Of a DNA stretch of 64,000 bases, positions 23,255-27,746 are shown one piece after another. The notes below the pieces were generated by a model. It did not search any database. It saw only the letters and a list, made by a program, of their open reading frames with translations, and was not told the DNA's origin. Numbering within the stretch: the stretch's first letter is position 1; the number at the start of each line of letters is the position of its first letter. Source of the stretch: Haloarcula salinisoli (GTDB taxonomy: Archaea; Halobacteriota; Halobacteria; Halobacteriales; Haloarculaceae); NCBI RefSeq assembly GCF_019599405.1, contig NZ_RKLQ01000002.1, positions 758,052 to 822,051 on the forward strand. The letters run 5' to 3'. The position numbers and the translations under genes were made by a program.

Positions 23255-25093
23255 CTACTTCGTCGCCTCGACGGGGTCGCGCCGTCGGAGCCGACTCTCG
23301 TCGTCGAACCGTCCGGCCTTGCCGGTCACGTACCACTCGCCGGTCGTCGCCGCCGTCGCGACGTCGCTCGTCTCCCAGTAGCGCTCGACGACGTGGTCGC
23401 CACGGAAGGCGACGGCACCGTCGTCGGTGACAGCGACCTCGGTCCCGGGGAGCGGTTCGCCCAGTGCCGTCAGCTGCTCGGCGCCGTACTCGTTGACACA
23501 GCCGACGCCCGTGAGCTCCGTCGTCCCGAAGACCTGACTGACCGGGACACCGACGCCCCAGAGGAACTTTGCCGTCTCCGGGTCGAGCGGATCGGTCCCC
23601 GACAGCGCGTGGTCGAGGTTCCCGAGCCCGAACGACTCTCTGAGCGGCCCGAACACGACACGTGCCGCCGCGGAATCCGTCAGCGAACCCGTGTTCCCGT
23701 TCTGGACGGCCTCTCCCCTGTCGATCGCAGCGCCGTCGGCCAGCCGCCGTTTCAGCCCGCCCAGCTCCGCTATCGACGCCTCCAGCTCCGACCGGAGGTG
23801 GTCGTACAGTTCCGGGGACCCGATAAGGACGTCCGGTTCCACGGCTTCGAGCCCGCCGACGATGTCGTCCGCCGGGATGTACGCCGCCGCTGCCCCTCGG
23901 TTCCAGAGGTAGTACGTCGTTGCCCGATGGAAGATACGCGACTGCGGCAGTACGGCAGTCCCGGTCGACCCGCGCGTGGCCGGGAACTGTTCGGAAAGCA
24001 TCGCGGCCGCGGCCAGCAGGTTCCGGTGTGTGACCGCACATTCGACCGTCCCCATCTCCGCCCCGGGCGGGGAGACGATGGTCGCCACGTCGTCGGGGTC
24101 CGCGTCGAATCCCGGGAGGTTGTCGCGGTTGCCGGCGGGCAAGTCGCTGATGTCGAACACCCGCTGTGGGCCTGCCCTGACGGCCTCGCTCGCGGTGCCG
24201 TCGACGACGACCGTCTCGATGTCCGTGGTGGCCTCGACCGTGACCGTTCGTTCGTCTGTCTGGCCCGCGTGGATGGGGACGGAGACGACGCCCGCGAGGT
24301 GGCAGGCGATATCGACGATCGACCAGCGGTACGAGGGGCGAGCACAGATACCGAGCGTCGTCCCGGGCTCGACGCCGGCGTCCAGCAGGCCGGCGGCGAC
24401 CCGCCACGCCTGCCTGTACAGCTCACGGAACGTCTGTGGTTCGTATCCGTCGCCCGTCGGGACGTACGCGGCCGGCCGGTCGCCGTGGCGGTCGACCTGC
24501 CGTGCGAACCAGTCCGCGACCGTCCCTTTCGGTATGGATACCGTCCCGCCGACGTAGACGTCGCTCTCGAGTTCCACCTCCGTGTCCTCGGCCGCGTAGG
24601 TCCGCTCGCCCTCTCGGCTCTCGTTTAGCTTGCCGGGCTGGTACTCGTAATCGTCGGGCACCTCCTCCTGGTAGTACTGGCTGTACTTCTGGTCGATGTC
24701 GGGACCGGCGATGTGGGCGTCCAGCCACTCCTTCGTGAACTCCAGTACGTCCGTCGTTATCGGCTCGCCGTTCTCGTGGCGCTCGCGGAACTCCCCGACT
24801 GTCTCGACGAACTCCTCGTGGAAGTCCTTGTGGTCGTAAAAGCAGTTCGCACAGTCCATCGCGTACCCGCAGTCCTGCATGAACTCCTCCTCGTCGCCGA
24901 AATGGTACTCGGTGTACCGCTCCAGCTCCTCCAAGATATCCCCCACTACTGCCTCGGAGTGGCCCGCCTCGATGGCCACGTGCAGGTCGTTCAGGAGCCC
25001 GAACAGGTGTTTGTGCTGCTCGTCGAAGCGGTCGATCTGTGTACTGTACCGCTCGTCGCTCCACTCGATGAACTCACCGTCCGACTCGGCCAT
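23255..25093 (-). CDS. Hemerythrin domain fused to a degenerate AMP-binding (acyl-CoA synthetase-like) domain
   Basis: A 612-residue fusion. Residues ~8-140 are a bacteriohemerythrin domain with all seven diiron ligands: H27, H64, E68, H88, H92, H127 and D132. From ~180 onward is the large domain of an ANL-superfamily adenylating enzyme (ADWFARQVDRHGDRPAAYVP, GVVSVPIHAG, FGTTELTG, YVTGKAGRFDDES). The nucleotide P-loop (normally TSGTTGxPK) reads VSPPGAEMGTVECAV. The chain ends just after the hinge, so the C-terminal lid with its catalytic lysine is missing. It therefore probably binds O2 or NO but is unlikely to make acyl-CoA. Cytoplasmic; monocistronic; ATG 25093. Confidence 0.85.
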   Translation of the reverse strand: MAESDGEFIEWSDERYSTQIDRFDEQHKHLFGLLNDLHVAIEAGHSEAVVGDILEELERYTEYHFGDEEEFMQDCGYAMDCANCFYDHKDFHEEFVETVGEFRERHENGEPITTDVLEFTKEWLDAHIAGPDIDQKYSQYYQEEVPDDYEYQPGKLNESREGERTYAAEDTEVELESDVYVGGTVSIPKGTVADWFARQVDRHGDRPAAYVPTGDGYEPQTFRELYRQAWRVAAGLLDAGVEPGTTLGICARPSYRWSIVDIACHLAGVVSVPIHAGQTDERTVTVEATTDIETVVVDGTASEAVRAGPQRVFDISDLPAGNRDNLPGFDADPDDVATIVSPPGAEMGTVECAVTHRNLLAAAAMLSEQFPATRGSTGTAVLPQSRIFHRATTYYLWNRGAAAAYIPADDIVGGLEAVEPDVLIGSPELYDHLRSELEASIAELGGLKRRLADGAAIDRGEAVQNGNTGSLTDSAAARVVFGPLRESFGLGNLDHALSGTDPLDPETAKFLWGVGVPVSQVFGTTELTGVGCVNEYGAEQLTALGEPLPGTEVAVTDDGAVAFRGDHVVERYWETSDVATAATTGEWYVTGKAGRFDDESRLRRRDPVEATK

Positions 25094-25236
25094 AGAATAT
25101 GCTTGGCAATTTCACCTGATAAATACGGCCGGGTATTCCCAGCGACTGAAAAGTCGGCCCGCTCTACGCGCCCCGCGTTCGCTGGCCCAGCGAACGCTCG
25201 TGGACGTTTTTTGTACCAGCCTGTCAACGATGCGGC

Positions 25237-25587
25237 GTGGCCGACGACTGTGACCCCGCTGACGTGTTCGCCCTCCTCGACGACGAGTACGCACGCTCGC
25301 TACTCGCGGCCACCAGCCACGAACCAATGACCGCACCAGCTCTCAGCGACCAGTGTGAGATGTCGCTCTCGACCGTATACCGCAGACTCGAACAGCTCGA
25401 AGGCTGTGGCCTCGTCGACGCCGAGGTCGTCCCCGACCCCGACGGCGACCACCGCAAACGATACGAGGCCCAGCTAGACGAACTGCTCGTCTCGCTGGAC
25501 GATGGCCAGTTCGAAGTGAGCCTCCGAACGGACAGTTCGACAGCCGAGTACGCCGACGCCTTTACCGACCTCTGGGAGGGGCTCTGA
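25237..25587 (+). CDS. Winged-helix regulator of a HTH/membrane-protein cassette (copy A)
   Basis: A 116-residue single-domain winged-helix protein of the ArsR-like haloarchaeal type: FALLDDEYARSLLAATSHEPM (first helix pair), CEMSLSTVYRRLEQLEGCGL (recognition helix), and a charged wing PDPDGDHRKRYEAQL. It has no metal-binding cysteine pair. One base separates its stop from the ATG of a small membrane protein, a fixed pairing that recurs in inverted orientation at 26055-26743. It probably autoregulates the cassette, but target and signal are unknown. The tail EVSLRTDSSTAEYADAF may contact its partner. Preceded by a TATA-poor gap. Confidence 0.85.
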   Translation: MADDCDPADVFALLDDEYARSLLAATSHEPMTAPALSDQCEMSLSTVYRRLEQLEGCGLVDAEVVPDPDGDHRKRYEAQLDELLVSLDDGQFEVSLRTDSSTAEYADAFTDLWEGL

Positions 25588-25588
25588 G

Positions 25589-25876
25589 ATGGTGGAGCCT
25601 CAGGCAATCGCCGAGGTCGTTAGCGTCCTGGAACTCCTCGTCGGTCTCGCCATCACCGGACTCGCTTTCCAGGGGTACCGACGGAACCGGAGTCGAGCGA
25701 TGCTGTTTCTGGGCGGTGGTATCGCGACGATGACCGTCGTTAGTTTGGTCGTCATTGTGGTAGTGGCTTTTTTCTCCAGCGCCAGCGCCCGGATGGTCGG
25801 CCTCGCCAGCTCGTTGACGAACCTCGTCGGGATGTGTCTGATACTGTACGCCATCGTCCTCGCCCGGAGAGAGTAA
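25589..25876 (+). CDS. Small three-helix membrane protein (cassette copy A)
   Basis: A 95-residue membrane protein with three hydrophobic helices (LELLVGLAITGLAFQGY, FLGGGIATMTVVSLVVIVVV, SLTNLVGMCLILYAIVLA) joined by short basic loops (RRNRSRAM). It has no known catalytic motif. It begins one base after its HTH partner. The paralogue in copy B shares the loop pattern YRxNxSRxMLF. A role as membrane sensor or anchor for the HTH is possible. It is followed after 16 bp by a fragment that repeats the end of the SRP54 gene. Confidence 0.8.
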   Translation: MVEPQAIAEVVSVLELLVGLAITGLAFQGYRRNRSRAMLFLGGGIATMTVVSLVVIVVVAFFSSASARMVGLASSLTNLVGMCLILYAIVLARRE

Positions 25877-26054: not shown

Positions 26055-26396
26055 TCAGACGTCCATCCGCAGTGCGTAGATGATACTGAGCAGGCCAGCG
26101 ATCTCGAACGTCTGGATGAGCAACTGGACGGCTACCTCGGACATCGATGGGACCACGAGTATCAGGCCGAACAGCAGGACAGGGGGACCGAGCATGATGC
26201 CGAACCCAAGGGCGATGAACAACATCGGTCGGCTATCGTTTCGCCGGTACCCCCGGTACGCCTGATAGGCGATAAACAGGCCCAGCACAGCGCCGACCAT
26301 CTCGTAGAGATTGCGCAACAGCAACGTCGTACTCTCGAAGGGACCGATGGTCATCGGGTGTCCGGGCGACCAGACGAGCATCAGTGTTTCCTGCAT
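26055..26396 (-). CDS. Small membrane protein (cassette copy B)
   Basis: A 113-residue membrane protein paralogous to 25589-25876, on the opposite strand. It has three hydrophobic helices (EMVGAVLGLFIAYQAYRGY, MLFIALGFGIMLGPPVLLFG, LLIQTFEIAGLLSIIYAL) and the basic loop RRNDSRPMLF. The N-terminus (MQETLMLVWSPGHPM) is longer than in copy A. Its start codon lies two bases after the stop of the HTH partner. No enzymatic motif is present. Confidence 0.8.
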   Translation of the reverse strand: MQETLMLVWSPGHPMTIGPFESTTLLLRNLYEMVGAVLGLFIAYQAYRGYRRNDSRPMLFIALGFGIMLGPPVLLFGLILVVPSMSEVAVQLLIQTFEIAGLLSIIYALRMDV

Positions 26397-26398
26397 CG

Positions 26399-26743
26399 CT
26401 ATATCCCCTCGATGAGTCTCGTGAACCGGTCTGCCATGTCCGCATGCCGGTCGATGGTGAGTTCGAACTGTCCGTCCACCAGGTCGACCGTCACCCGCTC
26501 GAGGTTCGCGGCATACAGTTTCCGGTGGTGGCCGCCGTCGGGGTCCGGCCGCGTCTGTTCGACCACGAGATCACACGCCTGCAGGCGTTCGAGACGGCGA
26601 TAGATAGTCGGGCCCGACACGTCACATCGCTGTTCGAGTGTGCTAGCAGACATTGGTTGGTCGCTTGTCTCAGTGAGGATGACCCGCACGGTCTCGTCTT
26701 CGAGGAGCCCAGCGAGCGTCTCGATATCAGGGTCAGCACTCAC
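26399..26743 (-). CDS. Winged-helix regulator of HTH/membrane-protein cassette (copy B)
   Basis: A 114-residue paralogue of 25237-25587: LEDETVRVILTETSDQPM, CDVSGPTIYRRLERLQACDL (recognition helix) and PDPDGGHHRKLYAANL (wing). The long frame continues upstream, but the sequence there is unrelated and overlaps the divergent CPBP gene. The GTG at 26743 gives a length matching copy A and is the best start. A second function is not evident. It is paired with the small membrane protein two bases downstream. Confidence 0.8.
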   Translation of the reverse strand: MSADPDIETLAGLLEDETVRVILTETSDQPMSASTLEQRCDVSGPTIYRRLERLQACDLVVEQTRPDPDGGHHRKLYAANLERVTVDLVDGQFELTIDRHADMADRFTRLIEGI

Positions 26744-26846
26744 TGTAGCGGGGTAGACGGAGAAACATGATAAATGGCTGTCGGCTACTTCAGCGACTGA
26801 AGCGCTGCCTGGCACCGCATTTACCAGGCCTCCATCTGTTCCGGTG

Positions 26847-27746
26847 ATGCCATCCAGCGATACCGACTCCTCACGGCTCGCACTGTTTGCAGAGCGCCGT
26901 CCGGTTGCACTGTTTTTCACTCTCGCCATCGCGACCTCCTGGACCGTCTGGATACCGACACTCTCGGTGCTCCCCCACGGCAACGTCCGGCTGCTCGCGA
27001 TCGTCCCCGGAGCGTTCGGCCCGCTGGTCGCAGCAGCCACAGTGACGATGCTCCGCGGTGAGTCCGCCAGACAGTGGCTGGTCGGCGCACTCGCCTGGCG
27101 GCGCTCGGCCCGGTGGTACGCCGTCGCCGTCGCTGTCCCACTCATCGTCAGCGTGGTGCTTCTCGGGACCCTCGTCGGACTCACCGGTTCGCTCGATCTC
27201 ACAGCGGGTCCGGAAGTGGCTGCGCTCCTCGGATTCAATCTGGTCTTTGCCAGCCTTCTGGGGGGCGGCCAGGAGGAGTTCGGCTGGCGAGGCTTTGCGC
27301 TCCCCCATCTCCAAGCACGCTACGATGCACTGACGGCCAGCCTCCTCATCGGCGTCGTCTGGGCAATATGGCACGCGCCGATGTTCGTCTTCGGCGTCTA
27401 CAGCGAGAATCCGGTGCTGTACGTGCTGGGTATCCTGGCGTTCGCTGTCGTCTTGACGTGGTACTACAACAGTTCTCGGGGACAGCTTCTGGGTGCTGTC
27501 GTCATGCACGGCACGCACAACGCCGCAGTGAACGTCCCACCGATGCTGGTCGAGGGAGCGAACACCGTTGCAGTCCCCTACGAAGGGCTGCTCGCCGCCG
27601 TGTACTGGGTGGTCGCGCTCGTTCTGCTCGGTCGTTACGGCCGAACGACACTCTCCAGCGAGGCCCCGGTAGAGCCGACGTGGGCGAACCAGCGCGGCGA
27701 CGAGCCGACAGCCCAACCGTCGTCGACGTTCGGGAGCGACGACTGA
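26847..27746 (+). CDS. CPBP-family intramembrane metalloprotease
   Basis: A 299-residue polytopic membrane protein of the CPBP/Abi family. The glutamate motif EEFGWRGFALPHL (EExxxR), the second motif VWAIWHAPMF (FxxxH class) and the third HGTHNAAVNV are all intact, so protease activity is plausible. The family includes CAAX-processing enzymes and bacteriocin-immunity proteins; archaeal substrates are unknown. It has about eight helices and an acidic C-terminal tail. ATG 26847 is chosen over the GTG one codon before. It is divergent from HTH copy B with ~100 bp between, and lies between the srp54 gene and the srp54 tail fragment. Confidence 0.87.
   Translation: MPSSDTDSSRLALFAERRPVALFFTLAIATSWTVWIPTLSVLPHGNVRLLAIVPGAFGPLVAAATVTMLRGESARQWLVGALAWRRSARWYAVAVAVPLIVSVVLLGTLVGLTGSLDLTAGPEVAALLGFNLVFASLLGGGQEEFGWRGFALPHLQARYDALTASLLIGVVWAIWHAPMFVFGVYSENPVLYVLGILAFAVVLTWYYNSSRGQLLGAVVMHGTHNAAVNVPPMLVEGANTVAVPYEGLLAAVYWVVALVLLGRYGRTTLSSEAPVEPTWANQRGDEPTAQPSSTFGSDD

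Follow-up and report, generated by a model that had tools for sequence, protein, structure and literature searches.

A haloarchaeal bacteriohemerythrin fused to a lidless, apparently inactive acyl-CoA synthetase core: a candidate gas-responsive protein of a respiration and heme regulon

The fusion gene studied here lies on the (−) strand of a Haloarcula salinisoli DNA window (the whole stretch that was analysed, 64,000 nucleotides), where it occupies positions 23255–25093, begins with ATG and encodes 612 amino acids; surE follows on the opposite strand, its end 6 bp from the fusion-gene stop. The predicted protein consists of a bacteriohemerythrin domain (24674–25072 (−), residues 8–140; delimited by the NF033749 profile, ligand invariance and a structural model), a linker (24533–24673 (−), residues 141–187) that is variable in alignment, and a lidless ‘pseudo-ANL’ domain corresponding to the N-terminal core of an acyl-CoA synthetase (23279–24532 (−), residues 188–605; delimited by PF00501, the model and the tree). 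Our model of the whole protein reached a pLDDT of 83.8 and a pTM of 0.70, with residues 156–169 of the linker below pLDDT 50, such that the mutual placement of the two domains is uncertain. Upstream of the gene lie a TATA-like element read directly from the sequence (TATTTATC, 25118–25125 (−), at −32 to −25) and an operator-like site (TTTTCAGTCGCTGGGAA, 25136–25152 (−)) located 59 bp before the start codon, a position conserved in relatives. The closest relative in our genome scan is from Haloarcula rara (93% identity), and because 16 loci in other genomes share 42–93% identity with the window protein over its full length, conservation of the fusion is, by this comparison, far above chance expectation. 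We class the protein among the hemerythrin fusions, with an unusual output domain.

The hemerythrin half exceeds the cut-offs of two family profiles (NF033749, residues 8–140, 110.7 bits against 84; TIGR02481, 92.8 bits against 51.75), and a separate model of this domain (pLDDT 89.6) superposes on a Methylococcus hemerythrin (4xpy; Z 18.4, 1.5 Å over 130 residues). As the original prediction had stated, all seven diiron ligands are in place: H27, H64, E68, H88, H92, H127 and D134 do not vary among the 40 hemerythrins that we aligned, which include fused and standalone haloarchaeal forms as well as standalone forms from other families of the phylum. The usual ligand spacing would pick D132 as the seventh ligand, but haloarchaeal hemerythrins carry a two-residue insert after H127 which places the aspartate two residues further from the histidine than in others, methanogen proteins included, and in the alignment D134 pairs with the ligand aspartate of the Methylococcus protein. 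Several relatives have N or E at the D132 position, whereas D134 never varies, and D134 is therefore likely the true ligand. Together, profiles, alignment and predicted structure show this N-terminal domain to be a bacteriohemerythrin whose diiron site is complete, and it is the sole hemerythrin-family protein that a search of the same genome returned. A five-residue insert bringing C81 and C84 is common to haloarchaeal hemerythrins, whether fused or standalone. These two cysteines and C75 are invariant in all of them, and a further cysteine in the synthetase half, C264, is specific to the fusions; a thiol switch or metal site is possible at these residues.

The synthetase half retains the fold of its family and has lost much of the machinery. 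Residues 196–573 match PF00501 along the entire profile (positions 1–384 of 384) at 130.7 bits against a cut-off of 29.9, the best ANL equivalog being NF038343 (FadD11) at 109.5 bits, which is below its cut-off of 950. In the whole-protein model, residues 189–606 superpose on the N-terminal core of ANL enzymes (Z 41.4, 2.1 Å over 362 residues against the FACL13 N-terminal domain, 3t5c), and confidence is maintained through most of this core. The A3 P-loop (24020–24073 (−), residues 341–358), however, reads SPPGAEMGTVECAVTHRN where an intact sister enzyme reads YTSGTTGFPKGCELTHRN; the motif [YT]SGTTGxPKG is intact in none of the 37 fusion sequences aligned, window included, and its positions drift freely, without a common replacement. 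The C-terminal lid with its A10 lysine is likewise missing from all 37, every one of which stops at or near the A8 hinge. Both losses had been predicted from the window sequence and prove to be family-wide. We considered a frameshift or a hidden downstream lid and ruled this out, given the proximity of surE and the common end point of the relatives at the same hinge. The A7 motif, WYVTGKAGR (23309–23335 (−), residues 587–595), is eroded, its ribose-binding aspartate (TGD) being Lys592, and the C-terminus then replaces the start of the lid; this aspartate is mixed across the family and gone in many other members. The A5 glutamate (YGxTE) is present in the window protein as FGTTE and missing in many relatives, while A4 (LPxxHxYQR) is mostly kept in the family, with its histidine changed to arginine in the window copy. 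Nor did we find a lid that might act in trans: in the six genomes searched there is no standalone PF23562 or PF13193 frame shorter than 500 aa, and since all such lids sit in frames longer than 500 aa, no separate lid appears to be on hand.

These observations bear on what the synthetase half might bind. The suggestion that it is a dead adenylating domain is supported across the family, as none of the 37 fusion sequences has an intact P-loop or a lid. The ligands that had been put forward, fatty acid, acyl-AMP and CoA, find less support. In the ANL superfamily the lid takes part in CoA binding, and CoA is therefore unlikely here; acyl-AMP also seems unlikely because the nucleotide site is eroded, A7 Asp being Lys in the window protein and A5 Glu lost from many members. 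A fatty acid is possible, the A4 motif being mostly retained in the family (with its histidine lost in the window copy as noted), which leaves two candidates, a fatty acid and a partner protein. Several positions, C264, S271, L396, G425 and G529 among them, are conserved specifically in the fusions, and these argue for a new role of the dead half that would be shared across the family.

In a maximum-likelihood tree of 50 ANL sequences, the fusions form a single clade (support 100/100) whose sister is a group of three standalone intact synthetases from Haloarculaceae (L062–L064; group 99/95, join 100/99) of 611, 610 and 609 aa, all with a P-loop and, confirmed for L062, a PF23562 lid; both clades are nested among intact long-chain synthetases. 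As the fusions are one clade with an intact standalone sister, this tree places a single loss of both lid and P-loop on the stem leading to the fusions. The hemerythrin half clusters with standalone hemerythrins of haloarchaea. The original prediction had proposed looking for the architecture in other haloarchaea, and among 391 sampled Halobacteria we found a hemerythrin of this type in 29, comprising 26 with the full fusion and five with a standalone form (some have both); the full fusion is confined to Haloarculaceae, where the full-length ANL core persists in at least five genera and the ANL half is kept in all 26 genomes. Outside the family, all matches in the 35 genomes with one in our phylum-wide sample are short standalone frames. 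Within Haloarcula, 18 of 24 sampled genomes carry the full fusion, one carries a wrecked copy and five have none. Two broken copies were seen: one (L061) is frameshifted near residue 490, lies near a contig end in the same genome (G295) as a second, full copy (L050), and is possibly an assembly artefact; the other, in genome G332 (L016/L059), has lost its start and most of the ANL half.

Selection on the synthetase half was gauged by pairwise Nei–Gojobori dN/dS, which is 0.10–0.15 among those Haloarcula copies that keep a divergent partner gene (the main clade; 0.01–0.05 in the hemerythrin half of the same copies), 0.13–0.39 for pairs from other genera and 0.29–0.41 in the window's own branch. 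Judged by these ratios, the ANL fold is under purifying selection in most lineages tested, the main clade being constrained (0.10–0.15) and the window branch relaxed (0.29–0.41). The window copy is thus a poorer object of study than those of Halorientalis, Halovenus or the main Haloarcula clade, which keep the partner gene and, in the case of the main Haloarcula clade, are more constrained. Synonymous divergence between the window gene and its relative L001 differs between the halves (pS 0.275 for residues 8–140, 0.108 for residues 188–605), which may reflect recombination within the gene.

The site upstream of the fusion gene is a near-palindrome, TTYYCA-N6-GGGAA, of which a relaxed form (TTYYCA-N6-[G/T][G/A]GAA) was found 57 to 60 bp ahead of the start codon at 24 of the 28 loci, including those of two standalone hemerythrin genes; the strict form is present in 17 loci against 0.006 expected from shuffles. 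The copy in the window, at −59, is the single match there (0.08 expected) and lies 10 bp upstream of the TATA-like element, and in most relatives a T-rich element follows the operator after 10–12 bp. Genome-wide, 12 sites were found against one for a reversed control pattern, and an excess over the reversed pattern is also seen in most of 20 other genomes. The ORF starts that follow 72 other sites cluster between +55 and +74, where successive 5-bp bins hold 17, 7, 6 and 5 starts and the background mean is 0.76. The genes so placed include heme functions (a fused siroheme decarboxylase AhbAB, an AhbD-like radical SAM protein and the heme A synthase COX15/CtaA) and also DoxX, universal stress proteins (Usp), another PF12900 protein and, named by inspection of its sequence, an MCP; some sites adjoin what inspection of the sequence suggests is a terminal-oxidase operon, and in three relatives the gene of a DmsR_N-HTH_10 regulator carries a site of its own. 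The operator stands mostly 58–73 bp before such targets (loci L128, L130, L133, L136, L168, L169, L178–L181, L185, L193, L201, L203, L207, L211, L212, L214, L217 and L222–L224).

We found no published description of a haloarchaeal regulon with the operator TTYYCA-N6-GGGAA. Regulators of the Bat/NarO/DmsR class act in the low-oxygen metabolism of haloarchaea (PMC11218638), and the operator differs from the motif of that study, CGAAYATDKTYG. A homology search for the regulator gave 37 HTH_10-like matches in the genome. We infer that a regulator of the Bat/DmsR class would drive the fusion gene when oxygen is low and, because the gene sits behind a DNA switch common to heme-making and respiratory genes, the fusion probably helps cells to respond to low oxygen.

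In most genera the fusion gene stands head-to-head with a PF12900 gene of 141–145 aa with a flavin-type split-barrel fold, the closest solved structures being putative FAD-binding and NimA-related proteins and Rv1155. Where the intergenic region spans 101–102 bp it holds one operator, at −57/−58 relative to the fusion gene and at −60 to −62 relative to its split-barrel neighbour; the window branch has lost this adjacent partner. Standalone sister hemerythrins, in turn, are encoded immediately upstream of MCP genes whose products have a protoglobin domain (Pfam), that is of HemAT type, in four of five cases (L055, L056, L058 and L060, the L058 case resting on an arrangement near-identical to that of L060), and hemerythrin and MCP together form an apparent diiron-plus-heme oxygen-sensing pair. 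The gas-responsive part of the original prediction thus receives indirect backing from the shared respiration and heme operator and from these sisters beside HemAT, and we take it as suggestive.

Other neighbours were set aside. Those in the window (surE, ffh and others) are common to the window's branch alone and are therefore uninformative on function. RuBisCO large-chain and sugar-kinase-like genes adjoin the fusion at four loci (L007, L010, L014 and L017) in Halovenus and Salinibaculum; being confined to these two genera, this arrangement is probably inherited synteny and was not taken as a functional link. The window also holds repeated small modules in which an HTH_20-type regulator precedes one or two DUF7521-like membrane proteins (25237–25876 (+) and 26055–27238 (−)), which recur at L172, L182 and L183, and similar modules are found near operator sites in other genomes.

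We propose, and consider about evenly poised between right and wrong, that the fusion is a cytosolic two-domain protein of Haloarculaceae belonging to a respiration and heme regulon for micro-oxic or respiratory adaptation, a gas-responsive effector whose pseudo-synthetase serves as a non-catalytic binding module. Judging from its family, the diiron domain would bind O2 reversibly, and possibly NO. The ANL half, derived from an intact long-chain acyl-CoA synthetase which lost lid and P-loop once and has since kept its fold, would act as a binding or interaction module for an acyl group or a partner protein and not as an enzyme. At low oxygen, a Bat/DmsR-class regulator would induce the fusion through the operator, together with the split-barrel partner in most genera. 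In the weakest step of the scheme, the oxy or deoxy state of the diiron site might alter what the pseudo-synthetase half binds. Counting against a gas-responsive reading are the uncertain mutual placement of the two domains in the model, the relaxation of the window branch, its loss of the A4 histidine and of an adjacent partner, and a gene that is wrecked or absent in six of 24 Haloarcula genomes. A more specific version, possible though doubtful, can be put forward: a gas-gated pseudo-acyl-CoA synthetase in which O2 or NO at the diiron site would switch the ligand or partner of the dead ANL domain, so coupling oxygen tension to acyl metabolism or to the control of heme and respiration by way of the thiol-bearing (C75/C81/C84) hemerythrin and the co-expressed flavin-type partner.

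An alternative that we hold to be possible though doubtful is that the hemerythrin does all the work as an oxygen store, carrier or scavenger, feeding a terminal oxidase with O2 or shielding enzymes, while the ANL half is a scaffold for oligomerization or localization. This would agree with a hemerythrin half far more conserved than the ANL half, with the existence of standalone sisters bearing the same signature, and with an operator that also serves respiration-related genes. Yet the standalone sisters adjoin HemAT sensors, so that sensing fits better than storage. Also against this alternative, all 26 full-fusion genomes keep the ANL half, on which purifying selection acts in most of the lineages tested.

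The synthetase half could instead be a decaying relict, baggage in the course of being lost after fusion to a hemerythrin that alone matters. The free drift of the P-loop positions, the elevated ANL dN/dS of the window branch and the frameshifted and internally deleted copies in two Haloarcula genomes are what such decay would leave, but we judge it improbable in view of the low ratios in the main clade, the fusion-specific conserved positions, the persistence of a full-length core across at least five genera and a model that is confident through most of that core. Last, traces of activity can persist in ANL cores that have no lid, and a cryptic enzyme that still carries out some reaction (slow adenylation, hydrolysis or transfer), switched by O2 binding, might be read from the largely kept A4 motif and from an A5 glutamate kept in part of the family, window included, but this is very unlikely where P-loop and A10-bearing lid are missing throughout, the A7 aspartate is lost in the window and many other members, and six genomes offer no separate lid protein.

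Hemerythrin fusions usually feed MCP, GGDEF or kinase outputs, and no ANL pseudoenzyme acting as a gas-responsive receptor has, to our knowledge, been described. If the link between the gas-responsive effector proposed here and O2 holds, the fusion would represent a new kind of sensory output domain, a synthetase fold that died once and was then kept. The operator, for its part, marks out a regulon of modest size in haloarchaea, with siroheme decarboxylase, heme A synthase, Usp, respiration-related genes and a DmsR/Bat-type regulator as members and with an exact promoter geometry, and low-oxygen control in these archaea is therefore directly testable.

Among known systems, the bacteriohemerythrin of Methylococcus capsulatus (4xpx; Z 18.3, 1.5 Å over 129 residues) and the hemerythrin domain of DcrH (2avk) share the four-helix diiron fold and all seven ligands with the haloarchaeal form, which differs from both in its five-residue insert (C81 and C84, plus C75), in the two residues inserted before the Asp ligand and in its fusion to a pseudo-ANL domain. 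The domain pair itself has precedent, since an O2-binding hemerythrin accompanied by an AMP-binding domain is stated to occur in some Methanococci (PMC4919030), the Pfam pair being the same according to the text of that paper; beyond this, our search of the literature on hemerythrin with acyl-CoA synthetase, or in haloarchaea, returned nothing relevant. Intact long-chain acyl-CoA synthetases, namely L062–L064 from Haloarculaceae and L019 from the same genome as the window, have the N-terminal core in common with the fusion but, unlike it, retain both P-loop and lid (PF00501 plus PF23562) and are not joined to a hemerythrin. The FACL13 (FadD13) N-terminal domain of Mycobacterium tuberculosis (3t5c) offers the same ANL core; it is, however, a truncated structure of an intact enzyme, whereas the fusion protein is naturally without a lid. 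Finally, the HemAT-type protoglobin–MCP aerotaxis transducers, as neighbours of the standalone sister hemerythrins, point to O2 as the same signal, but have an MCP signalling domain where the fusion has none.
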